Below, piece after piece: positions 1,565 to 30,786 of a stretch of 31,599 nucleotides of DNA. Position 1 is the first letter of the stretch. Every line of letters starts with the position of its first letter. The stretch comes from a virus. Where the stretch lies: IMG/VR virus record IMGVR_UViG_3300035204_002230, positions 1 through 31,599 of that record. One strand, given 5' to 3'. The position numbers were made by a program, and so were the translations under genes. The notes beneath the pieces are model-generated. The model had not been told where the DNA came from and searched no databases. It saw only the letters and a program-made list of their open reading frames with translations.

Positions 1565-2341
1565 ATGAGTGAAGAAAAAGAACTTAGAACACAAAAAGAA
1601 ATCAATGTTGACATTGCTCTTAAAGAAGCTGAAGCTCGCAAAATGGAAGCTGATGCTAAAAATATTGAAGCGATGGTTCGGAAAAACGAATTAGAAGCTG
1701 ATAAAGCTGCTATTGAACTCACATTCAAGCAGATGGACTTGGTTGTCAAAGAAGAGAAGCGCGCTAAAGAGAAAGCTGCCGACGAAGAAAACTTCGTGTA
1801 CCGATTCGGTAACTCAGTAACTGACGGATCTGTCAACTCATGTGTAAAGAAGCTTACAGAGTGGAGTCGACTGAACCCTAAGTGTAACATGGAGATTATA
1901 TTCTCATCTCCTGGTGGTGGTATCATTGAGGGCTTTGAGCTGTTTGATCATATACAGCACTTACGCAATCAAGGCCATCACATTACTACTGGTACACTAG
2001 GTATGGCTGCATCGATGGCTGGCATCCTACTACAAGCAGGTGACACACGCTGGATCGGTCAGCAAGCATGGCTTATGATCCATAGAGCAGCCTTTGGCGC
2101 ATATGGTAAAACATTTGAAATTGAAGATGAGGTTAAGTTCGTTAAACGAATTGAAGAGCGTATCTTAGACATCTTTACTAGTAGATCTAATCTCACTCGC
2201 AATAAGATTAAACGTAACTGGGAGAGAAAAGACTGGTGGATCAGCGCAGAAGAGTCTGTCGAACTCAAACTAGTAGATGAAGTAAGAGCAATTTTACCAG
2301 AACATTCTGTAAATAAGAAGAAGAGGAGAAAGAAGAAATGA
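1565..2341 (+). CDS. ClpP-like serine protease with N-terminal coiled coil
   Basis: A 258-residue protein. Residues 1-75 are charged and heptad-like (likely coiled coil), absent from ordinary ClpP. From about 77 the ClpP/crotonase fold appears: SSPGGG at 114-119 (oxyanion strand), GMAASMAGI with nucleophile Ser150, MIHRAA with His173, and ERKDWWIS with Asp223. The spacings (23 and 50 residues) fit the ClpP triad. The C-terminus is a lysine/arginine tail. ClpP peptidases degrade proteins delivered by Clp ATPases; phage ClpP relatives can also act as head-maturation proteases. A ClpC-like ATPase is encoded at 28318-30786, making a partner plausible. The stop overlaps the next small frame (ATGA). 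Confidence 0.85.
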   Translation: MSEEKELRTQKEINVDIALKEAEARKMEADAKNIEAMVRKNELEADKAAIELTFKQMDLVVKEEKRAKEKAADEENFVYRFGNSVTDGSVNSCVKKLTEWSRLNPKCNMEIIFSSPGGGIIEGFELFDHIQHLRNQGHHITTGTLGMAASMAGILLQAGDTRWIGQQAWLMIHRAAFGAYGKTFEIEDEVKFVKRIEERILDIFTSRSNLTRNKIKRNWERKDWWISAEESVELKLVDEVRAILPEHSVNKKKRRKKK

Positions 2342-3052: not shown

Positions 3053-3631
3053 ATGTACAACTTAAAGCTTTTAATAATAAGTACTGTACTAATCGTTTGT
3101 GGAGGGTGTAGTACGCTATTACCTAGTAAGTCTACTAGCTCACAAGCACAATGGAAATCATATCAAGATATTGAAACCCTCGCTAACCATATACATGCAG
3201 GTCAAACACTGGATGATCTCAAAACTCTCGGCATCGATGTTAAAAATACTCCCAATATGGAATCACTTACTCATTTAGATATTGCCAAACGGTTTGGTCT
3301 AATTGGAAGACGAGATGAATCTCTTGTTATCCCCGCGGGTGTTAAAAAGTTAATGGATGCAGCTGAGAAAGGTAAGGGTTATGAATTAACCGTTGAATCG
3401 ACCCAACATAACCGGCTTGGTAGCTTTTGGGCTGATTTTCTACAATTCAGAAAAAATGTGCACACTACAGGATGGACATTTTCTATGCTCTTAATTGTAG
3501 TAGACGATAAAGTAGAGTATGTTCTTTATAAAGGAAATCCTAACATTGATAAGTTAGAAAAGGAAAAGAACCCTCTCGGGCCCTTTCAAAAGATCAGCGG
3601 TTATATTATAGTTGACCTATTAGCCGATTAA
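3053..3631 (+). CDS. Putative lipoprotein (192 aa)
   Basis: The N-terminus has a short basic region, a hydrophobic stretch (LLIISTVLIV) and CGGCST, which resembles a signal peptidase II site with lipidated Cys19, although the -3 position (Cys) is not canonical. The mature part is soluble, with ETLANHIHAGQTLDDLKTLGID and a late segment likely to be beta-rich (FSMLLIVVDDKVEYVLYKG). No enzyme motif seen. It is probably anchored in the host envelope. The gene overlaps the convergent minus-strand gene by four bases. Confidence 0.6.
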   Translation: MYNLKLLIISTVLIVCGGCSTLLPSKSTSSQAQWKSYQDIETLANHIHAGQTLDDLKTLGIDVKNTPNMESLTHLDIAKRFGLIGRRDESLVIPAGVKKLMDAAEKGKGYELTVESTQHNRLGSFWADFLQFRKNVHTTGWTFSMLLIVVDDKVEYVLYKGNPNIDKLEKEKNPLGPFQKISGYIIVDLLAD

Positions 3632-5010
3632 TTTAACTCTTCTGGGGAGCGTTTAATCTGACCATATAGAGGGTCTTGAGGATCCATTTCTCCATATGGA
3701 TTACCTTCTTGTGGAAACTCATCAGCACCATAATCAGCTGGTGGTCTGTCACCTCGTTCAACGGCTTTATCTTCAGCATGGTCTACCATCTCATCAAAAT
3801 GAGACTCTAAGTGGTCTTCAACAGCTGCTTTTAACTCATCGCGCTCATCTAAATACTCATCGTAATCTAAGCGCTTAGGTAGTTTACCAGCTTTTTGCAT
3901 GTCATGTATAACCATTCCTGCTAAATCATCTAACAAGTCGGGATGTACATCTTTCAAACTGTTTACTTTTGCATGTAGAAGTTCTTGATCAAGCCAATCA
4001 GCACCGGCTTTGATTACATCGTCACTATACCATTCAATAACTTCTTCAGCACTCCAGTCAGGAGATTCACCGAAACTATTTTCATTAACAGCAGCTTTGC
4101 TACTATGATCTTCATTTTGCTCTGCAACACCACCGAATACCTTTTTGAGTGCACTCATTATCTTACTTGGTATACCATTTTTTTTCTTTTTTAGAATACC
4201 AACTTTGACTTTAGGTTTCTTGTCATCTAATAGATCGTCGTTCATCTTAATAGCAACCCCGTGAGCATGGTCACCTGGTACACCACATCCACAATCTTCT
4301 TTTACATTAGCTGATTCATAAGGTACATCGTCTTCAGGGTTAAGATCATCTACATCAACTGGCTCTTCTTCACCATTAATATGACTAAGGTCACTGATAT
4401 GTACAGCAACTCGATCACCTTGTTCTAGTCCATCCTCCATGTCTTCAGACAATTCAATAATACCATGCGTCCCAGCTGGCGACATCTCAATTACTTCACC
4501 TTTACCGCCACCCACGCGTGGGTTAATTTCTACTAAATCTCCTTCTTCAAACGATTCTAACTCTTCTCCTTCATCATCAAGCTCTTGTGGCTCTACCCTG
4601 GCCAATGGCTCTAAATCTTCAGGTCCTTCGTATTGACCATGAGAAAGGTCGTCTTCTTCTCCAATTTTGTAAGCAGCGTTTACTGCAACTTGAGGTCGCT
4701 GCCCGCCTTGTTGCGCTGCTAGTTGAGCCTTGGCTCTTCTCATGGCTTCAGCCTCAATGTTTGCTTGAGCGTTTAGATTCAAATTCGGATTCATAGCTAC
4801 CCGTTTGTTGACCTTCGCATTCCAGCGCTTGACAGCATTCCATACGCCCGTCTTACCTTCGAGGTCTTTTATAGGTTTGTCATAATCGATCACTTCCTTT
4901 TGGCCGCCAAACAATCCTCGGCGATGACCGAATTTTCTTTCTTCAGCCTCATTTACTACTGCTTCTTTGGTGTAAGCTTCCCAGATTAATTGTTCGTCAT
5001 GTGGTTTCAC
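3628..5010 (-). CDS. Acidic protein with capsid-targeting-like N-terminus (460 aa)
   Basis: The frame is open to 5124, but the likely start is GTG at 5010, five bases after a late box, giving M-KPHDEQLIWEAY. That opening matches genes at 217, 20133 and 21790 and contains I-W-E, the T4 prohead-protease pattern (L/I)xE. A basic segment (about 20-60) is followed by an Ala/Gln-rich helix, a very acidic region, an SH3- or KOW-like stretch (GDLVEINPRVGGGKGEVIEM), a CGCGVPGDHAHG cluster and an acidic C-terminus with DEYLDERDELKAAVEDHLES. It may be an internal head or core protein; no direct homologue is recognised. Confidence 0.7.
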   Translation of the reverse strand: MKPHDEQLIWEAYTKEAVVNEAEERKFGHRRGLFGGQKEVIDYDKPIKDLEGKTGVWNAVKRWNAKVNKRVAMNPNLNLNAQANIEAEAMRRAKAQLAAQQGGQRPQVAVNAAYKIGEEDDLSHGQYEGPEDLEPLARVEPQELDDEGEELESFEEGDLVEINPRVGGGKGEVIEMSPAGTHGIIELSEDMEDGLEQGDRVAVHISDLSHINGEEEPVDVDDLNPEDDVPYESANVKEDCGCGVPGDHAHGVAIKMNDDLLDDKKPKVKVGILKKKKNGIPSKIMSALKKVFGGVAEQNEDHSSKAAVNENSFGESPDWSAEEVIEWYSDDVIKAGADWLDQELLHAKVNSLKDVHPDLLDDLAGMVIHDMQKAGKLPKRLDYDEYLDERDELKAAVEDHLESHFDEMVDHAEDKAVERGDRPPADYGADEFPQEGNPYGEMDPQDPLYGQIKRSPEELN

Positions 5011-5015
5011 GTAAG

Positions 5016-5022
5016 TATTTAT
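5016..5022 (-). promoter_or_regulatory. T4-late-like box ATAAATA (minus)
   Basis: On the minus strand ATAAATA is followed by CTTAC and then GTG at 5010, so a leaderless or nearly leaderless mRNA is expected. Confidence 0.6.
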
Positions 5023-5029
5023 TGTCAGA

Positions 5030-5049
5030 TTATACCAAATTTGGTATAA
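5030..5049. repeat. 20-bp perfect palindrome
   Basis: TTATACCAAA is followed directly by its reverse complement TTTGGTATAA. The right arm runs into a plus-strand TATAAATA box, so a dimeric protein bound here would cover that promoter. Operator, origin element or cruciform are possible; which is not known. Confidence 0.6.
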
Positions 5050-5052
5050 ATA
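5045..5052 (+). promoter_or_regulatory. Exact T4-late box TATAAATA (plus)
   Basis: This is the full T4 late consensus. Transcription would start near 5058, just before the structured element at 5063-5138, and run antisense to the RadA-like gene. There is no plus-strand gene here. Confidence 0.4.
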
Positions 5053-5062
5053 ATTAAAAGAG

Positions 5063-5138
5063 CCCGCCAAAAGGTGTTTCATGAAGGCTAAACTAACCTG
5101 TCGTAGGTTCTCTCTACGCACCATAGCCTTTTGGCGGG
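5063..5138 (-). ncRNA. Three-way-junction RNA element or complex terminator
   Basis: A perfect 12-bp closing stem (5063-5074 with 5127-5138) encloses two hairpins: 5102-5106 with 5114-5118 (CGTAG/CTACG, 7-base loop) and 5085-5090 with 5094-5099. The second contains C-A on the plus strand but a G-U wobble on the minus strand, so the minus-strand RNA folds better. It lies 17 bases after the RadA-like stop and is followed by CTCTTTTAATT, so it could simply be an elaborate 3' end or terminator; a small RNA or protein-binding element is also possible. Confidence 0.45.
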
Positions 5139-6147: not shown

Positions 6148-6624
6148 CTAAAACACTCGCTCAGCATCAGCCATATCTTTGATGTATATGTTGAAGCCAC
6201 CTTTATCAAATTTTCGTGGCCGTTTCTTTTCAGAATTCTCAACTCTTTCTTGGCCTAGAATTCTAACTTGGTCAACAGACATCATATATATCTCTTTGAT
6301 ATCAGCACTGTCTCTTAGGACGAAATAGAATTTATCTGTTTCCTCAAGCTTGTTCAATTGCTTCCAATGAAATTGCCATGATGAGCCTCCTGACCGGATG
6401 TTAATAGTCTTATATTCTACAGGTGTACCAGTGTGAGTATATGCATCTGGTCCCTGTGTCTTATTGCTCCATCGATGTCCTAATAATGCAGCCGTTAAGA
6501 GCTCTATATGACCACCGTTATAGAAGATGTCCGTTATTCGTTCGTTTTGTATCTCACTTGCTAACTGTTGTACTTCATTTAGCAGTGACTGAAATTTTTG
6601 CAATTTGCGTGTTTTCATTTTCAC
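6148..6624 (-). CDS. PD-(D/E)XK-like endonuclease
   Basis: A 158-residue protein with an N-terminal helix, HIELLTAALLGHRW (Glu41) and GPDAYTHTGTPVEYKTI, where P59-D60, Glu70 and Lys72 form a PD-x(9)-ExK arrangement typical of restriction-type nucleases. WQFHWKQLNK and a FYFVLRD strand follow, as in type II restriction folds. Recombination, repair or host-DNA degradation are possible roles. It lies just upstream of the RadA-like gene and has its own sigma70 promoter with the shared TTCCTC spacer. Starts at ATG 6624 and ATG 6618 are both possible. No specific family can be named from sequence alone. Confidence 0.55.
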   Translation of the reverse strand: MKMKTRKLQKFQSLLNEVQQLASEIQNERITDIFYNGGHIELLTAALLGHRWSNKTQGPDAYTHTGTPVEYKTINIRSGGSSWQFHWKQLNKLEETDKFYFVLRDSADIKEIYMMSVDQVRILGQERVENSEKKRPRKFDKGGFNIYIKDMADAERVF

Positions 6625-14703: not shown

Positions 14704-15135
14704 GTGAAAGACGAATTTGACCGTATAGCTGGTTTGATCGGATCAAATCTACGTGAGTATGGGTTTGAGTTACAAGCTTATTCCTGGAGTGAATTGGTTT
14801 GGTCATATCAACGCCCGAGTAAACACTTTGCTGTTACTATACAGAGAAAAGGCGCGCGTAACGACCCTACTCACATGACCCCAGCACGAGGCAATTGGGA
14901 TGATTATGAACAATTAGCAGTCATTGCATATGCTGATAAAAAACGTTTAATGAATTGGAATATCGAAAGATCTGAACTGGAGCCAAATGATCCTCATTTT
15001 AGCGAAAGACAGGTGAGATATGTTATAGATGAGATAACAAAACTATTTAAGAAGTATATGTCTGCAGATGAGCGGTCGCACGCTGAATCAACATTGCCAC
15101 CATTTAACTTATTCTACCGTGACACTCTTGGCTAA
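14704..15135 (+). CDS. Hypothetical protein (143 aa)
   Basis: A soluble protein beginning MKDEFDRIAGLIGSNLREYG, with a beta region (SWSELVWSYQRPSKHFAVTIQRKG) and a helical end (RYVIDEITKLFKKYMSADER). No known family recognised. The GTG start is chosen from the late box. It converges on glmS and overlaps its 3' end by 27 bases. Confidence 0.6.
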   Translation: MKDEFDRIAGLIGSNLREYGFELQAYSWSELVWSYQRPSKHFAVTIQRKGARNDPTHMTPARGNWDDYEQLAVIAYADKKRLMNWNIERSELEPNDPHFSERQVRYVIDEITKLFKKYMSADERSHAESTLPPFNLFYRDTLG

Positions 15136-16899
15136 ATGACGTGGTCGGTCAACATTATATTTGTGTTGTTGTGCCATATACATACTAAAGAACTGCAATG
15201 GGATTACAGCTAGTATTGGTTGAAGATAGTCAGGTGCTTTAGGTAGATATATAATATCATCATATGTATCTTCCGGAAAATCTAACCCCTCTTGAGTTAT
15301 AGCAATTATATGACTATCACGAGCCATAATCTCCTTCATAGTAGATACATTCTTCTCGAACAACTCTTTCTGAGATGCGATATATATGCAAGTAGCATGA
15401 TACCCGATCGCTGCTAATGGTCCGTGCTTGAGTTCACCCGCAGGGTATCCGTGACACTCTACATAAGCTAACTCTTTCAGCTTTAATGCACCCTCAATAG
15501 CTATAGGATACATTAGTTGTCGACCTAAGAATGCACAACTCCGCATCATTGACCATTTAGCAGATAGAGTTTTACACTGAGTACATATATCTAATGTCTT
15601 TTCAACTAAAGCGGGGAGCTTTCTAAGCTGAGAGATATATCTCTTTGCTTGTACTTTGCTTAAGTTGTGCTTTCTACCAATATAGATAGACAACATAATC
15701 AGGATTGTTAGCTGTGATGTAAATGCTTTAGTTGATGCAACAGATATCTCAGGACCAGCATGCTGATATATACCCATATTAGTTAACCGCGCAATAGAGC
15801 TAGCAACAACATTAGTAATAGATATAATCATATGGCCTTGAGCTTGAGCCTCTTCAATAGCTGTTAATGTATCTAACGTTTCACCTGACTGGCTGATAGC
15901 TACGATTAATGTACCATCTTCTGTTGGGGTGTTCTTATATTTGTATTCTGACGAATACTCTACACTAGCAGGTATCCCAACAATAGACTCTACTAGATAC
16001 TTTCCTACCAACCCTGCATGATAAGCTGTACCGCATCCTAAGAACAAAACTCGTCTAACTTTCTTTCTCAGCTTAATACCACCAAACAAAATGTTAGTAA
16101 AGTCTTTGCTAAACCTACCACGCATAGCATTTCTAATAGCTACAGGCTGTTCTCGTATCTCTTTCTCTAGATATGTCGCATACCCTTCTTTGTTATTTGC
16201 AGTATATTTATGATCAACGCTAGATATTTTGGGCCTCTCTACAACTTTATCCGATTTATATATGCGAAGATCTTCCGCTGTAACTATTGCTACTTGATCA
16301 TCCTCGAGGTATATTACGCGAGAAATCTCTGGAGGTAGAGCATATGTATCACTAGCAATGTATGTCTCTGTCTCATCTTTGTCTATACCTACTACTAGCG
16401 GAGAACCTCTACGCGCAGCTACGATTGTCTTAGGATCATCACGATGCATAACAGCAATGCCATACGTACCTTCAACCTTCTCTAGTGCTCTTGCGACTGC
16501 TTTGCCTAGATCTAAACTATATTCATCAGCAATTAGATTTGCAATAACTTCGGAGTCTGTGTCTGATTTCAGGTTGTAATCAAATTGATGAGCATTCTCA
16601 ACTACACCATTGTGCACTACTACAATCTTACCATCATTACTAATATGAGGATGTGCATTTTTAACATTTACTATTCCATGGGTGGCCCATCTAGTATGAC
16701 CGATACCAATAGTAGCTTTTGATTTAGATTTGCCTTTGAGATTGTCAGGCGCGCCAACCTTCTTTATTGTCTTGAATTTGTTTCCATCTATGACAGATAT
16801 ACCACATGAATCATAACCTCTATATTCAAGCTTCTTTAAGCCGTCATAAACTTCGTTATACGCCGATTTATTACCTATATACCCGAATATACCACACAT
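15109..16899 (-). CDS. glmS: Glutamine-fructose-6-phosphate aminotransferase
   Basis: A full-length GlmS (596 residues; bacterial enzymes are about 600). The glutaminase domain starts MCGIFGYIG with the N-terminal nucleophile Cys2, then RGYDSCGI, HTRWATHG and SDTDSEVIA. Two sugar-isomerase (SIS) domains follow, with ISQSGETLDTL, STKAFTSQL, KLKELAYVECHGYPAGELKH and the C-terminal DRPRHLAKSVTVE. The enzyme makes glucosamine-6-phosphate from fructose-6-phosphate and glutamine, the first step to UDP-GlcNAc. As a phage gene it would supply amino sugars for glycosylation or envelope chemistry; no glycosyltransferase is visible here. A sigma70-like promoter lies at 16907-16934. Confidence 0.95.
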   Translation of the reverse strand: MCGIFGYIGNKSAYNEVYDGLKKLEYRGYDSCGISVIDGNKFKTIKKVGAPDNLKGKSKSKATIGIGHTRWATHGIVNVKNAHPHISNDGKIVVVHNGVVENAHQFDYNLKSDTDSEVIANLIADEYSLDLGKAVARALEKVEGTYGIAVMHRDDPKTIVAARRGSPLVVGIDKDETETYIASDTYALPPEISRVIYLEDDQVAIVTAEDLRIYKSDKVVERPKISSVDHKYTANNKEGYATYLEKEIREQPVAIRNAMRGRFSKDFTNILFGGIKLRKKVRRVLFLGCGTAYHAGLVGKYLVESIVGIPASVEYSSEYKYKNTPTEDGTLIVAISQSGETLDTLTAIEEAQAQGHMIISITNVVASSIARLTNMGIYQHAGPEISVASTKAFTSQLTILIMLSIYIGRKHNLSKVQAKRYISQLRKLPALVEKTLDICTQCKTLSAKWSMMRSCAFLGRQLMYPIAIEGALKLKELAYVECHGYPAGELKHGPLAAIGYHATCIYIASQKELFEKNVSTMKEIMARDSHIIAITQEGLDFPEDTYDDIIYLPKAPDYLQPILAVIPLQFFSMYMAQQHKYNVDRPRHLAKSVTVE

Positions 16900-20132: not shown

Positions 20133-20993
20133 ATGCGCGATAGAGACTCTCAACTTATATTTGAACGATATTGTCACGGTATAATTTCTGAAGAAATTGC
20201 CGACCCTGTAGCTTGGGATAGAGGAGGTATAATAAAATTAAATATTACTGGGCATGACCTTGAATTTAAAATAACCGGCAAAAACAGCGACAAAAATAAC
20301 AACTGGTACTTTAATATAGTACCTATGAAGGACTACAGTTCACTTGGCCCGATAGCAAACATTGGAACCAGTCCTGGTGACGGGGAGAATGCCGCTGCGA
20401 AGGAAATATTATACAATACAAAAACACCCATTAACGTATATAAACAAGTTCTTACAGGTCAAGAATTCCCTAAGAATGCACCAACTGCAACTGTAAAAGT
20501 GGTAGATTATAACTCAGGAATAGCTACTGGTGGTGGTACTGGTGGTGGTACTGGTGGTGGTACTGGTGGTGGTACTGGTGGTGGTACTGGTGGTGGTACT
20601 GGTGGTAGTGCTGGGGGTGCAGTTACTAGTGGATCTCGCGGAAGAGGTAGACATCAAGGACTATGGCACGACGATCCAAAGTATAAATATGGCTTAGGTG
20701 CACAACTTGCAAAAAGAGGAATGTTTGCAAAAAGTGACTGGGGGAATCGATTAGGTACTGGTGTGATCGCGAACAAGGCTGAACAAATGTTCCAAAACTT
20801 GTTAGCTCCTCGAAATAATGAAAAACGTACAGGAGTATCAAGATACGCGACCACGCCACAGGACCGCGCGGCTGCCGCCCGTCGACCAGAACCGGGTAGT
20901 AAAATGCGTCATGGGTGGGAAGGGCCTGAAAGAGAAACTCGCAGAGGTAGAACTAGGTATGCTACATCTGCAGATGTGCGACGTGGGGCTTAA
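20133..20993 (+). CDS. Gly-Thr-repeat protein with capsid-targeting-like N-terminus (286 aa)
   Basis: Starts MRDRDSQLIFERY, the same opening as proteins at 217 and 5010, with I-F-E matching the T4 prohead-protease pattern. Residues about 25-125 are a compact domain (KLNITGHDLEFKITGKNSD). Residues about 132-157 are TGGG repeats from a 12-base tandem repeat. The C-terminal 130 residues are basic (SGSRGRGRHQGLWHDD, RRPEPGSKMRHGW, ERETRRGRTRY), suited to DNA or RNA binding. I infer a DNA-associated internal head protein. It overlaps the convergent gene at 20990 by four bases. Confidence 0.65.
   Translation: MRDRDSQLIFERYCHGIISEEIADPVAWDRGGIIKLNITGHDLEFKITGKNSDKNNNWYFNIVPMKDYSSLGPIANIGTSPGDGENAAAKEILYNTKTPINVYKQVLTGQEFPKNAPTATVKVVDYNSGIATGGGTGGGTGGGTGGGTGGGTGGGTGGSAGGAVTSGSRGRGRHQGLWHDDPKYKYGLGAQLAKRGMFAKSDWGNRLGTGVIANKAEQMFQNLLAPRNNEKRTGVSRYATTPQDRAAAARRPEPGSKMRHGWEGPERETRRGRTRYATSADVRRGA
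20526..20609 (+). repeat. 12-base tandem repeat (six exact copies plus one variant)
   Basis: The unit ACTGGTGGTGGT is repeated without change from 20526 to 20597, followed by a variant copy. It encodes TGGG repeats. The lack of silent differences suggests recent slippage expansion. Confidence 0.9.
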
Positions 20994-21790
20994 TAATCAC
21001 TCATTGAACTAGAACCTAGCCCGTAACCACCAAGTTCTCTCTCCCAATAATCGTCCGCTGCATAGCGAGAATCTTCAACTTCTCCCCCTACATCAACAAC
21101 TTTGTCTTCTGTATCTTCTTCCTCCTCTGGAATAAAGATACCATCACTTTGAAGCAGTTCGTTAGCTAGTGTTTTAGCTTCATCAAGAGACATCTCAGCT
21201 CTTAAGACATTAATAATATCTCTACCGGTTGCAGAAAATCCACCACCAAATTTTTGTAACAGTAAATCATGAGCTTTGTAGGCATCAGAATCAGGAGTAA
21301 CTCCTGACTCGCGATTAATTTCGTATGTATGTCTGTATTGAAGGTCAACCGCGCGCTCAACACTTTTCTCAACTTCTTTCTCAACTTCTTTTTCGTCAAC
21401 ATCATTGATGGTTACTTGTTGAGTTGCACCATCTATAGAAATTATTTTTAACCGCTTTAGGGCATTCGTAACAACACGAGATACATATCCAGCATTAGCT
21501 TTACCAATACCAGCTGAATCTCTAATTGACTGAATAATATCTACTCTAAACTCTTTGAATGTACCGTCATAATGACTATTTTCATGACTAGATAAAAAAG
21601 CTTTAACAGCGTCAACTACGTCATTTATAAGCTCCGGAGTAGGTACTTGATATTTCTTAAGTCTATCAATTTCATCACTATCAAATTGAGCAGCTACATC
21701 ATCTGTATCCCAAGCTTCACCAGGGTCTACAGGAGCTTCATATATTTTTCTATAAGCTTCGAACAATAAATTGCGGTCGAGATCTTTCAC
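20990..21790 (-). CDS. Hypothetical protein with capsid-targeting-like N-terminus (266 aa)
   Basis: Opens MKDLDRNLLFEAYRKIYEAP: L-F-E fits the (L/I)xE cleavage pattern, and MK-x(5)-LLFEA resembles T4 internal-protein signals. The body is helical, with DEIDRLKKYQVPTPELINDVVDAV and GKANAGYVSRVVTNALKRL (helix-turn-helix-like), a coiled stretch (DEKEVEKEVEKSVERAV), and an acidic then Tyr/Gly/Ser-rich end. GTG 21790 follows a late box by five bases. Probably a core or packaged protein; no homologue named. Confidence 0.65.
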   Translation of the reverse strand: MKDLDRNLLFEAYRKIYEAPVDPGEAWDTDDVAAQFDSDEIDRLKKYQVPTPELINDVVDAVKAFLSSHENSHYDGTFKEFRVDIIQSIRDSAGIGKANAGYVSRVVTNALKRLKIISIDGATQQVTINDVDEKEVEKEVEKSVERAVDLQYRHTYEINRESGVTPDSDAYKAHDLLLQKFGGGFSATGRDIINVLRAEMSLDEAKTLANELLQSDGIFIPEEEEDTEDKVVDVGGEVEDSRYAADDYWERELGGYGLGSSSMSDY

Positions 21791-24517: not shown

Positions 24518-24918
24518 TGGTGGAGCAGGCGGGAGTCGAACCCGCGTCCTTAAAGCAACTTCTAATAACTTCTACACGCTTAGTCACCCTTTCGGATTCG
24601 GTTGTGTGGGATCTAAGGTGACAAACTCCCACACAACCTAGCGTAATACTTCGGATGGACCCTCGCCAGGGTTACCATACTGCAGGTTGTGTTTGCGCCA
24701 TATAACCTACAACCGTTAGCTATACGACGTTCGCCTAATTAGGCGAGCGCAAGCTCTCGAGAACCTTTCGTAGCTTCGAATTTCTCCGCTACCTTCTCAA
24801 AGAGCCCTAATACCTCATTCTTGGCATTTAGTGTTGTTTCCGCTTTTTAACGAGGCCAACGAAACCCTCGGCGTGCAATCAATAGCGATCAACAATAAGT
24901 CGAATCCATTACTGCCCC
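24518..24918 (-). ncRNA. ssrA: Transfer-messenger RNA (tmRNA), one-piece
   Basis: The 5' end GGGGCAG and GGATTCGAC, and the 3' end GGTTCGACTCCCGCC followed by CTGCTCC and encoded ACCA, make the tRNA-like part with a 7-bp acceptor stem. Around 24846-24865 the minus strand has GTTGGCCTCGTTAAAAAGC, as in bacterial tmRNA before the tag. The resume codon is GCC (24823-24825). The tag has 28 codons, beginning AKNEVLG, containing FEKVAEKFEATKG, and ending ELALA before TAA (24739-24741), which sits in the usual stem CGCCTAA/TTAGGCG. Pseudoknot-like repeats follow. tmRNA rescues stalled ribosomes with SmpB and tags the product for Clp-type proteases. A 28-residue tag is long (E. coli has 10). Confidence 0.95.
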
Positions 24919-24923
24919 AATAT

Positions 24924-24930
24924 TATTTAG
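24924..24930 (-). promoter_or_regulatory. T4-late-like box CTAAATA before tmRNA
   Basis: On the minus strand CTAAATA, five bases, then the first G of the tmRNA. The spacing equals that between late boxes and GTG starts elsewhere, consistent with the tmRNA 5' end being near the transcription start, though RNase P normally makes this end. Confidence 0.45.
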
Positions 24931-24958
24931 TATATTATATAAACCTGGCAACGGTGAT

Positions 24959-24986
24959 AAAAAAAAGCGGCCATATGACCGCTTTT
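24959..24986 (-). terminator. Rho-independent terminator
   Basis: On the minus strand AAAAGCGG and CCGCTTTT pair across an 8-base loop, with eight T on the 3' side. It ends the Cys-rich gene at 25012 before the tmRNA. Confidence 0.75.
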
Positions 24987-25210: not shown

Positions 25211-26149
25211 TTATTTAATCAAAATGCACGGATCGTTTGGCTCATAATAAAGTAAAAATGGAAAGTTCTTTTGAACATCATCACGTTTCTTTCGCCGCTT
25301 TTCTTTGTCCCCGCTACCAAACGAGGCTCCAGCATCTTCTACCGGAAGCTTTGCTAGGGTCTCTTTTGAAGGCATTGGAACTTTTGGATCAAGCGCCCAT
25401 AACAAATTGTTCCTTTCTGCCCAATCAACCATTCTTCGAATGGGTACGATTAAATTAAATGTCTCACCTGCACCTCTAACAATCATACCTATATAGCGAC
25501 CGTCCTTCTTAAGATAAACACCACCACCAGATGATCCCGGGAAAGCTGCAACAGTTGTCTGATCAAATACATGCTTATTAAGTTGAGGAATCAATCGACC
25601 ATGTTGTGAATATATTCCGTCAGTCATTGAATTTGAACCCATTTGACCGAGCAATGAACCTACATGCCATAAATCAGTTCCAAGCTTAGGGAGCTCTTTA
25701 TCTAAATAAAAGCTGACCGAATCTTTAACAAATCCGACTTTACGAACCTTTAGTAATGCCAAATCATGACCATCTTCAGAATTAGAATACTTAACCACCT
25801 CAGCATCAAGCTCTAGCCGACCGACAGCGCGCCCATTTTGCCGAATTACTTTAATAATCTTCGCATCCTTAAACTCGACTACGGTTCTAGGTGCACCATT
25901 AATAATAACTCTGCGCTCCGAACGCAAATTGTCAATTACGTGCGCAGCTGTCCAAACAAAATTAACCAAATCTCCATTTTTATCTTTTCGTGTAAATATG
26001 ACACCTGACCCTTCTCCAGACGACCATTGAGATTCAGAACGAATGGTTACAGAAATATTCTGTAAGTAAGTTGCAGTTGGCTTTTCTTCACCGGCGAATG
26101 ATATTGTCGCGATGAGTAACGACATGATAGTTGCTTTGATTAACTTCAT
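25211..26149 (-). CDS. Secreted trypsin-like serine protease (312 aa)
   Basis: ATG 26149 gives MKLIKATIMSLLIATISFAG, a cleavable signal peptide, so it is exported. The chymotrypsin-fold motifs are intact: WTAAHV with His70, HDLALLKV with Asp129 and FPGSSGGGV with Ser207 (GxSGG). A C-terminal extension (about 245-312) is rich in Lys, Glu and Pro. Periplasmic DegP-like proteases share the fold, but there is no PDZ domain. In a phage this could cleave host envelope proteins or aid release or exclusion; the target is unknown. It ends five bases before the Cys-rich gene. Confidence 0.8.
   Translation of the reverse strand: MKLIKATIMSLLIATISFAGEEKPTATYLQNISVTIRSESQWSSGEGSGVIFTRKDKNGDLVNFVWTAAHVIDNLRSERRVIINGAPRTVVEFKDAKIIKVIRQNGRAVGRLELDAEVVKYSNSEDGHDLALLKVRKVGFVKDSVSFYLDKELPKLGTDLWHVGSLLGQMGSNSMTDGIYSQHGRLIPQLNKHVFDQTTVAAFPGSSGGGVYLKKDGRYIGMIVRGAGETFNLIVPIRRMVDWAERNNLLWALDPKVPMPSKETLAKLPVEDAGASFGSGDKEKRRKKRDDVQKNFPFLLYYEPNDPCILIK
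25212..25219 (-). promoter_or_regulatory. T4-late-like box ATTAAATA (minus)
   Basis: Five bases before ATG 25206 and overlapping the protease stop codon. Confidence 0.5.
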
Positions 26150-26156
26150 ACCCAAC

Positions 26157-26231: not shown

Positions 26232-27245
26232 CTATTCAACCAATTCGGCAACTTTGTCAAACTTCTTAGTAGTCTGAAGTAAGCGCAATCCGCGTTGCAT
26301 CATTTGGTCAGCCGGTCCACCCATTAGGCTAGATACCATCCGGCGCTCAGCTGCTTGCCGACCACCCTTTTCGAGCTTGCCGATGTTGTTGTGGTGATTG
26401 ACATACTCAGTTAGACCGTTGAGTGCATCCCAACGCGTTGCTCCAAGGTTACCTGCACCATTAGCAAACAGATCAACAATCTTTTCGCGACGGTTAGAAA
26501 TTCGTGACGTTGCACGAACTTCAATCTCCTTACCATTCTCGTCCTTCTTACGCTCTGGATCAGGAAGAAGAATTGAAGTGAACCCACGACACTCATCAGA
26601 AGTCATCTTGACCTTATCAAGCTGATTAGCAATCTTCTCGAAAGACTGCAATCCACGTAAAGCAGCATGAAAGCTATCTTTAGCTTGATTGAGACGATTC
26701 TCCCAATTCTTAGTATGAGAGATCCAGTAATCAGACTCATTCGCATTCTGCATAATAGTACGTAACTGGTTATTACAAAAGATCCGTGATGCCATTCCGA
26801 AGTATGCATTACGTTTAGTACCATCGTTAGTACCGAGAGCCATGATGCGATTTTCTACCTTGTCATCTGGCCGCGACTTAAGTGAGAAGTTGTTGGACAG
26901 CTTTGCGCTAATCCAAGCCTTCTTTCCACCATCAATTAAACCTGCGCCCTCATATTGAGCGCCGAACTCCTGGACCATCTCATGGAACGGACGGAACATC
27001 TCGTCCATAGGAATGGAGGTGTAACGTTTCCGCATCACTGCGAAATTCTGAAGCGTATCAGAACGGCGAATAAGAAAATACCCAGGGACTTCATCACCCT
27101 CTGGGGTGTGTGCTGGGACCTTCTCGACATCGAAGTCGAAGCCTGCCATTTTCATAACTTCATCGAAGTCAGATGCTTTGCTAATGTCTACGCCGATCCG
27201 ATCGTCCAGCCTTACTAATTCAGTTTCTCCTGTAAATGTACTCAT
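26232..27245 (-). CDS. DUF932 family phage/plasmid-like protein (337 aa)
   Basis: A DUF932 protein: an N-terminal region with GYFLIRRSDTLQNFAVMRKRYTSIP, a central GLIDGGKKAWISAKL segment, an NRIMALGTNDGTKRNAYF stretch and a CNNQLRTIMQNAN block. These match the family, which is common in phages and plasmids; its role is unknown (a link to DNA metabolism has been suggested). The coding bases look more GC-rich than those of its neighbours. It is a single-gene unit between a sigma70-like promoter (27274-27302) and a strong terminator, implying early or middle expression. Confidence 0.85.
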   Translation of the reverse strand: MSTFTGETELVRLDDRIGVDISKASDFDEVMKMAGFDFDVEKVPAHTPEGDEVPGYFLIRRSDTLQNFAVMRKRYTSIPMDEMFRPFHEMVQEFGAQYEGAGLIDGGKKAWISAKLSNNFSLKSRPDDKVENRIMALGTNDGTKRNAYFGMASRIFCNNQLRTIMQNANESDYWISHTKNWENRLNQAKDSFHAALRGLQSFEKIANQLDKVKMTSDECRGFTSILLPDPERKKDENGKEIEVRATSRISNRREKIVDLFANGAGNLGATRWDALNGLTEYVNHHNNIGKLEKGGRQAAERRMVSSLMGGPADQMMQRGLRLLQTTKKFDKVAELVE

Positions 27246-27851: not shown

Positions 27852-28346
27852 ATGCTTGTAATTAATCTAAAACCGAGTGACAGAGCTATAAGATATTGTA
27901 AAAAAGACAACATCGAGTTAACTCGAGTACAAGCGGTTCTAAATTTTATTGCTCAATACATTGATAAACGTAAAAAGATTGAAATAGTCAATATGTCTTT
28001 AGACATAGATTGTCGAAAAGCGGATAGCGAGTATAATTTTCAGAGTAAACATATTCTTATTGCAGGGATCACCGAAAAACATCGAAGAGGTAGTACCAGA
28101 GAAGGTAGACTAAAATATCTTTTCGAACATCTCGTCCATGAATTTAGACATTGTATGCAGGAAGTGATATTTCATCGCGATGCATCAGAAATTACTTATG
28201 ATTCAACAGACGACGCCGAATATGCAGACAACCCATTAGAAATAGATGCAAATTGGTTCGAGCAAAAATTTGCTAAAAAAGCATATCACCTTTACCGGTC
28301 ACTACGGAAAGCTAAAGTTAAGAACGCTGACGTGTTTTACGAATAG
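27852..28346 (+). CDS. HExxH zinc-metallopeptidase-like protein (164 aa)
   Basis: The centre reads LFEHLVHEFRHCMQEV: HEFRH at 96-100 is an HExxH zinc motif with catalytic Glu97. About 30 residues later NPLEIDANWFE offers Glu130 as third metal ligand, as in gluzincin-like families. The flanking regions (VNMSLDIDCRKADSEYN; helical C-terminus) are unassigned. It may cleave a host or phage protein, or be a fold relative without protease function. The only gene on the plus strand in this part, it converges with the ClpC-like gene, overlapping by 29 bases. Confidence 0.65.
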   Translation: MLVINLKPSDRAIRYCKKDNIELTRVQAVLNFIAQYIDKRKKIEIVNMSLDIDCRKADSEYNFQSKHILIAGITEKHRRGSTREGRLKYLFEHLVHEFRHCMQEVIFHRDASEITYDSTDDAEYADNPLEIDANWFEQKFAKKAYHLYRSLRKAKVKNADVFYE

Positions 28347-30786
28347 GCTTCTTCTTAAATTTTATATCAGATCCTGATGCAGTACAGATAATAGTATCCC
28401 CGGATTTATATTTGTCAGTTAATATTATATCTGCAAATTTAGTTTCAAACAATCGCTGCATTGTACGGTTCAGTTCTCGTACTCCATATTTTTCACTATA
28501 ACCTTCTTCTAAAAATAATTTTTTCGCAGCGCTATCCAATGTCACCGTTATATTATAGTGTTCTTTTATCCGACCTACATACTCACGAAAATTTATATCT
28601 ATAATCATCTTAATATCATCTTCTGTCAATTGGTTAAACACAACAATTTCATCAATTCGATTTATAAACTCAGGCTTGAATTCGTTTCTAACAGCTTCTA
28701 AGGCCTTTTCATGGCCTAACTCTTTTTTCTCTTTATCAGTTGGTGTTACGAACCCTAGAGGTGTTGGTGATTCAACTTGTTGGGATCCAGTATTGGTAGT
28801 CATAACAACAACAGTATTTTTAAAGTTTATAACTCTTCCCTGACCATCTGTAACTTTACCTTCATCGAGAATTTGTAACAAAATATGTAGTACTTCTGGA
28901 TGTGCCTTTTCAATTTCATCAAATAGTACTACTGAATATGGAGACCGACGAATACGTTCTGTCAACCCTCCTCCTTTATTATAGCCAATATAACCTGGAG
29001 GGGAGCCTACCAGTTTTGAAATTGCATGGCCTTCCATCAGTTCAGACATATCAATCTGTATAAGCTTTTCTTTACTGTCAAACAATTGACTAGCTAGCAT
29101 TTTAGCCAAATATGTTTTACCTACACCTGTTACTCCTAAAAACAGAAATGAACCTATAGGTCTATCGGGGTTTTGAATGTTAACAGCTGAGCGCTTAAGT
29201 GAATTACTAATACATTTTACAGCACCGGATTGACCAATAACTGACTCACTTAAAACATCGTACAACTTTAATATCTTCTTCTTATAACTAGTTTGTGTTG
29301 TTGCTATCGGTATTTTAGTTATCGATGAAATTATATGCTCTATATCTTTTTCAGTAATTGTAGTAGACTTTTTTTTAGATTCAGTACACGTACTGGCTAA
29401 TTGATCCCTTTCCCCTATACATTCCTTTTCTTTATCGCGATACTTGCAAGCTTCTTCAAATTGCTGACCTTTGATAAGACTCTCTTTTTTTGACTTATGT
29501 TCTCTAATTTTATCTTTCAGGTGTCGGATCTTTTGGACAACTTCATCTACTTGATGAGTTGCAGCGCCAGCTTCATCAATTAAATCGATTGCTTTATCAG
29601 GTAAATTTCTATCTGTCAAATAACGAACTGATAAATCAACAGCTGCTGTTAGACATTCAGGTGTATATTTACAGTGATGGTATTTTTCATAGCTATGCTT
29701 AATACCTTTCAATATTTGTATTGTATCAAGCACAGTAGGCTCATCAACTGTAATTCGCTGAAACCGGCGTTCTAGTGCACTATCATTTTCAATTGATTCT
29801 CTATATTCGTCAGGTGTTGTTGCTCCTATGCATCGCATTTCTCCACGAGCTAGCGCTGGTTTAACAATATTGCTAGCATCCATAGCACCCTCGGCAGATC
29901 CGGCTCCAACTATCATATGAATCTCATCTAAAAATACAATTATATTTTTATTCTTCTTAATTTCACCAAGAACTGCTTTAAGTCTCTCTTCAAATTGACC
30001 TCTATACTTAGTACCTGCAATCATTGCAGGTAAATCTAAAGATACAATATGCTTAGACGATAATATCTTAGGAACTTCACCATTAACAATTTTCTGAGCC
30101 AAACCTTCAACTACAGCTGTTTTACCAACACCTGCTTGACCAACTAATATTGGATTGTTTTTTGTTTTTCTACAAAGTATTTGTATCAATCTCTTAATTT
30201 CAGCATCTCGTCCAATTACCGGGTCAAGCTTTTTACGAGATGCTAATCTCGTCAAATCAACGCTATATTTTTGAATATTTTTTAACGTTAGAATCTCATC
30301 ATCGTCTCGTTCGAATTGCTTGTCTAGAATACTATCTTCTAGATTGCCTCCAACTTCTTTGTTAATGATACGTTTTACTGATTTAAAATTAACACCTAAA
30401 CTTACTAGTATATTGTTTGCAATCCCATCAGGCTCATACAACAATCCTAAAAATATATGCTCAACGTCAATACTAACCCTGTCTAACTTTTTCGAACACT
30501 GATTAGCTAATTCAATAACCTTCTCAACACGAGGAGTAAATGAAATTTCATCAATAGATATTGGATCATCCCCTTCTTGAGATATATTGTCATACACAAT
30601 CATCCTAAGCTGTTCTATGTCAATATTAAGATCTTCCAAAATATCAGTAATAACACTATCACCAATATTAAGTAGCCCTAATAACAAGTGTTCAGTACCT
30701 GCATATCTATTTTTGAGCAGTTGAGCCTCTTTTTTAGCTATTGACAAAGACTGTTTTGCTTTTGGAGTGAGCTTGTATGTGTTCAC
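28318..30786 (-). CDS. ClpC-like AAA+ unfoldase (822 aa)
   Basis: A complete HSP100: two N-terminal Clp repeats (about 1-145; [18 protein letters not shown]), first AAA domain with Walker A GQAGVGKT (216-223) and Walker [10 protein letters not shown] (282-290), a UVR-type segment ([13 protein letters not shown], about 443-455) as in ClpC and in place of the longer ClpB coiled coil, then the second AAA domain with GVTGVGKT (551-558), LFDEIE (621-626) and [15 protein letters not shown]. Residues 677-679 are LGF, in the loop where ClpC/ClpA/ClpX carry the VGF/IGL/IGF that docks on ClpP. So it should thread proteins into a ClpP-type peptidase. GTG 30786 follows a late box by five bases. It ends with a basic tail. 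Confidence 0.9.

Follow-up and report, generated by a model that had tools for sequence, protein, structure and literature searches.

Phage-borne tmRNAs have been described before, and so have long bacterial tags that go along with a switched protease. The former are known from the mycobacteriophages Bxz1 and Wildcat and from Bacillus phage G (PMC4131195); huge phages carry tmRNA together with SmpB (PMC7162821), and a survey from 2021 recorded tmRNA in 402 of 18,146 phage genomes (PMC9004378). Among the 97,179 unique tmRNA sequences of one database, 10 residues is the commonest tag length (PMC11915505), and a longer tag is encoded by mf-ssrA of the mollicute Mesoplasma florum, where the NYAFA end is read by Lon since ClpXP is missing (PMC9382460). 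While both phenomena are thus familiar, the literature searched gave us no description of a phage group in which conserved long tags are the norm, most subscription papers lying outside that search.

The DNA analyzed here, referred to as the window, is the whole of a 31.6 kb virus contig (31,599 nucleotides). An earlier note, made from its letters alone, had pointed to a one-piece tmRNA gene with readable tRNA-like ends and an unusually long tag of 28 codons. ARAGORN and a full-length match to the Rfam covariance model RF00023 agree on this gene; its coordinates proved exact, and the strand, which the note had not given, is minus. The features of the gene and its immediate surroundings are as follows.

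24518-24918, minus strand: one-piece tmRNA gene (ssrA), 401 nt, supported by ARAGORN, RF00023, G3-U70 plus CCA, and synteny in three relative contigs
24739-24825, minus strand: tag reading frame, 28 codons plus stop, AKNEVLGLFEKVAEKFEATKGSRELALA (ARAGORN 94-180; in relatives the frame is kept, with in-frame indels and third-position bias)
24757-24810, minus strand: extra tag middle, roughly LGLFEKVAEKFEATKGSR, between ordinary tag ends, by comparison with the 10-residue modal tag and with relatives (limits approximate)
24838-24872, minus strand: pseudoknot 1, with a CGAGG/CCTCG stem and a second stem GTTTC-GGAAAC (limits approximate)
24919-24951, minus strand: candidate tmRNA promoter, TAAATA plus sigma-70-like TTGCCA-18-AATAAT (consensus match only)
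24963-24986, minus strand: terminator-like hairpin between the upstream gene and the tmRNA

The RF00023 match scored 157 bits (E 3e-62; gathering score, 47 bits) and covered model positions 1-374. The acceptor stem GGGGCAG/CTGCTCC is intact, contains the G3-U70 alanine-identity pair that is present in all 26 members of the group, and is followed by ACCA, the CCA being genomic. Pseudoknot 1, of the H type, has its end 12 nt upstream of the resume codon, GCC, and was equaled in score by 4 of 200 shuffles; it was found in each of the nine members checked, and in the relatives L085 and L087 its second stem is CCGA/TCGG, both sides being altered relative to the window. The regions of pseudoknots 2-4 appear as simple stems in the alignment to the Rfam model. 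As a whole, the window tmRNA folds more stably than its shuffles (z -4.1), and its minimum-energy fold includes a hairpin in the mRNA-like part. From the resume codon the tag frame is open, ends in hydrophobic residues and is then closed by a stop codon; resume codon and frame are placed alike in three relative contigs. These data confirm that positions 24518-24918 are a complete one-piece tmRNA.

In its full-length model match, G3-U70 pair and CCA end, pseudoknot 1, resume codon and hydrophobic tag end, this tmRNA is like the one-piece tmRNAs of bacteria. It differs from them in that SmpB was not found along with it and in its tag of 28 residues, compared to a modal length of 10 (PMC11915505), which also makes the range of 8-15 residues that the note had called typical about right. 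With Bxz1, Wildcat, phage G and the huge phages it shares its residence in a phage; it is set apart from their tmRNAs by belonging to a T4-like group with conserved tags of 26-35 residues. The flanking DNA is that of a virus record rather than of a bacterial chromosome, and a relative of 111.7 kb (G003) encodes a T4-type terminase, DNA polymerase, UvsX, clamp loader, single-strand binding protein and tail sheath; by these genes, the lineage of the window is that of a T4-like myovirus. The marine methylophage Melnitz likewise combines a complete ssrA gene with T4-like genes, but its tmRNA is two-piece and riboswitch-linked (PMC9004378), whereas that of the window is one-piece. The proposal that the one-piece form bears on host identity stands as regards the form and is weak as regards the host, since the form and lineage of a phage tmRNA can differ from those of its host (PMC9004378).

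The clade of the window contains three distinct tag sequences of 26-28 residues: that of the window, GNKMSDLFNVVADKFEAAESEELALA in L085, and GKNKVSELFAKVADMFQATPKQELALA in L087 and L088. All three share LF..VA[DE].F.A...ELALA, and the gaps in their alignment are all in frame. Between the window and L085 tags, changes at the three codon positions number 7, 5 and 18 (pN 0.28, pS 0.75), while pN is 0.24 and pS 0.32 between the window and L087. Selection to keep the tag as a peptide is suggested by these values, though not strongly because there are only three sequences. A pattern for the tag end of this clade matched only the three relatives already known, and the tag core did not occur as a degron in other phage proteins in 3.3 Mb of DNA from the records examined. 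The possible amphipathic helix that the note had seen in the tag middle fared poorly: the maximal hydrophobic moment of the window tag (0.58) was reached by 15% of shuffled tags, so that the helix is weakly supported and, as a statistical feature, does not exceed chance.

Long tags also characterize a wider, sister family. A profile of the trypsin-like protein neighboring the tmRNA gathered 80 viral contigs, to which a DUF932 profile added no further relatives, and RF00023 detected 17 full tmRNAs in 50 records of these contigs. Read from the aligned resume codon, all 17 tags have 30-35 residues, which brings the range for the whole group to 26-35; additional tags were recovered by pattern. Sixteen of the 17, together with those found by pattern, share a single type, AN[DS]N[VI]DM-(E[FML])-APS[VL]AEAD[EA]ILA[KRQ]FG[FWY]-EE..-ALAA, exemplified by ANDNVDMAPSVAEADEILARFGFQEAALAA; the lone exception is DNSFGQTSSFVQKLSAFAASLTGAEVELAA. 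In the middle part of 21 such tags, median pN is 0.12 and median pS 0.48, and codon-position changes amount to 464, 628 and 1828. Since pN lies below pS in 209 of the 210 pairs, the sister-family tag middle is, by this measure, under strong purifying selection at the peptide level. Because the middle is preserved by natural selection in related viruses, the extra section of the tag very probably has some role.

These values bear on the simplest alternative, namely that this is an ordinary tmRNA whose tag is merely longer, with ELALA alone sending products to host ClpXP or ClpAP and the insert taking no part in the choice of protease. Its variable length within the group and the hydrophobic ALA/LAA-type ends retained in most members would suit such a tag, but a functionless spacer should not retain EADEILA[KR]FG[FWY] at a pN that is one quarter of pS, and we consider this explanation unlikely. 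Another possibility is that the insert is kept chiefly for the RNA, its hairpin aiding folding, stability or nuclease escape during infection, and that the peptide is a by-product. The sister-family tag DNA forms a hairpin that is more stable than synonymous samples in 20 of 20 distinct sequences (mean z -1.74), and the fold of the alignment beats all 200 column-wise synonymous permutations, a procedure that ignores relatedness and for this reason makes the hairpin moderate evidence for an added RNA role; the hairpin of the window tmRNA, in its mRNA-like portion, points the same way. RNA-level selection may hence contribute to the sister-family tag. As the main cause it appears quite improbable to us: changes in the sister family fall mostly on third positions and spare the residues, and the window-clade tags show no excess folding over synonymous samples (z +0.73, -1.80 and +0.38).

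The reading that we prefer, and hold with moderate confidence, is that of a phage tmRNA whose ordinary tag ends enclose a conserved, roughly 18-residue insert acting as a second recognition module. The phage tmRNA would be charged with alanine by host AlaRS. With host SmpB as its carrier it would, during infection, enter ribosomes that have stalled on broken mRNA and append its 28-residue tag to the unfinished proteins. The tag would start in the ordinary way (A-K-N-E...), and its hydrophobic ...ELALA end probably still serves as a signal for Clp-type proteases. The insert, at the level of the peptide, would then alter the choice of the unfoldase or adaptor by which the tagged product is read, or the speed with which this happens; degradation is the likely outcome, and the identity of the reader is a guess. 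Like the window tag, that of M. florum mf-ssrA is longer than usual, but it is bacterial and unrelated in sequence (PMC9382460); the reading by Lon pertains to the M. florum tag. Instead of directing degradation, a long tag might shield the products from host proteases, so that ribosomes are freed and the products survive. Some members indeed have atypical C-termini (LVE, PVA, VTA, LAV), yet the degron residues of the ALAA/LAA/ALA type persist in most, and protection of this kind seems highly improbable.

Presumably, the window tmRNA uses host SmpB, because the search for SmpB elsewhere in the genome, which had been proposed as a check, revealed none in the window, in the relatives G001-G004 or in 50 wider relatives, with control genomes positive; its absence is not proof, since the contigs are fragments. 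The adaptors SspB and ClpS were absent from 17 records. Candidate partners and conserved neighbors of the tmRNA in the window are the following.

25211-26155, minus strand: trypsin-like serine protease with a signal-like N-terminus (PF13365, 2.9e-11; weak HtrA/DegP match; A1 alignment)
26232-27245, minus strand: DUF932 protein, a conserved neighbor (PF06067, 6.9e-33; 65-77% identity in relatives)
28318-30786, minus strand: Clp-type AAA+ unfoldase, ClpC/ClpA-like with Clp_N and two AAA domains, a candidate partner (phrog_4871, 7.5e-242)
1565-2341, plus strand: ClpP-fold serine protease with a charged N-terminal region (PF00574, 1.5e-25; phrog_94, 4.6e-46; NF045542, 6.9e-24)

In the clade of the window the ClpC-like unfoldase lies 3.4 kb upstream of the tmRNA. 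Its best NCBIfam matches are ClpB and ClpA, below the equivalog cut-offs, and it carries an LGF tripeptide for docking to ClpP that is kept as LGF or IGF in relatives. The ClpP-fold protein of the window is a doubtful partner for unfoldase and tag because it appears closest to phage head maturation proteases.

Long tag frames, e.g., IDNDLFVSENFFDEAVMVSTRELAVA, occur as well in tmRNAs that ARAGORN missed, i.e., L094-L097, which belong to the jumbo phage records G007-G010, and L104-L107. The four jumbo phage records combine them with a Clp unfoldase as in the window, although their resume codons are uncertain. In G008-G010, ClpP is found 0.1-0.7 kb from the tmRNA, and SmpB is present in three of the four, G008 and G009 among them; ClpC is encoded in some of these records, elsewhere.

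One could envision from such arrangements a dedicated module in which the phage ClpC-like unfoldase recognizes the insert and feeds tagged products to ClpP. The gene order of ClpC-like unfoldase, DUF932 protein, trypsin-like protease and tmRNA is conserved in three relative contigs, which fits this idea, as do the LGF/IGF docking loop and the proximity of ClpP to long tag frames in G008-G010, with SmpB in G008 and G009. Against it, the sister-family phages have long tags and yielded no match to ClpC or another Clp unfoldase (in a first search without and a second with a positive control), so the phage unfoldase cannot be a general reader of the insert; the close relative L086 (G002) has ClpC and lacks the tmRNA at that place; and the ClpP-like protein of the window resembles a head maturation protease. 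As a full account we therefore regard the module as rather unlikely, while the unfoldase is a possible candidate reader in the clade of the window only. Returning to the insert as a second recognition module, we tentatively entertain a broader version: several phage lineages may independently have added such a peptide module and thereby reroute rescued products to another protease or adaptor during infection, the reader possibly being phage-coded in some of them, i.e., the jumbo phages with tmRNA beside ClpP and the window clade with its ClpC-like unfoldase. If true, the rerouting would give the phage its own route of protein disposal.

ARAGORN returned the full tag for 7, a truncated tag for 6 and no call for 5 of 18 loci, these being the 17 sister-family tmRNAs and L093, a more distant contig that bears ClpC and a 34-residue tag; phage tags are under-reported for this reason. 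When the species genomes of 84,980 bacteria and archaea were scanned with a back-translated pattern of the sister tag core, nine matches emerged. None lay within an ARAGORN-called tmRNA, and in those re-read in six frames the core lay within longer open frames. The evidence that this tag type is phage-specific appears good but not complete, because ARAGORN misses some long tags. A search for close isolated relatives in 50,697 phage records gave neither a tmRNA match nor a trypsin-like match. A loose tmRNA DNA pattern gave four stretches, one with an ARAGORN tmRNA of permuted form and short tag and three without. An insert preserved residue by residue throughout a phage group and unseen in the bacterial genomes searched suggests that selection keeps the tag itself and not just ribosome rescue. 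This bears on why phages carry tmRNA and makes that question testable with simple reporters.

The same neighbors flank the place in L086/G002 from which the tmRNA is absent, which indicates that the gene is dispensable; a proline-rich open frame follows the trypsin-like gene there (L086, 11900-13400). TAAATA precedes the tmRNA 5' end by 5 nt in the window and L085 and by 7 nt in L087, and its resemblance to a T4 late promoter suggests expression late in infection.

The trypsin-type protease (25211-26155) shows 48-76% identity in the 80 uncultivated viral contigs. Four otherwise unlike window proteins (217-708, 3628-5124, 20133-20993 and 20990-21790) have in common an N-terminal D.QLI[WF]EAY-like peptide that resembles the capsid-targeting sequence of internal head proteins; the likeness of the tag to these peptides is at chance level once the number of comparisons is allowed for. 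One carrier is a SET-domain protein, and two such proteins adjoin each other on the plus strand (PF00856; 217-708 and 785-1138). The window also encodes a PvuII-type restriction endonuclease-like protein (6148-6624, minus strand; PF09225, 5.2e-08) and a complete phage GlmS, glucosamine-6-phosphate synthase (15109-16899, minus strand), which scores above the NCBIfam equivalog cut-off and is present in L116 as well.
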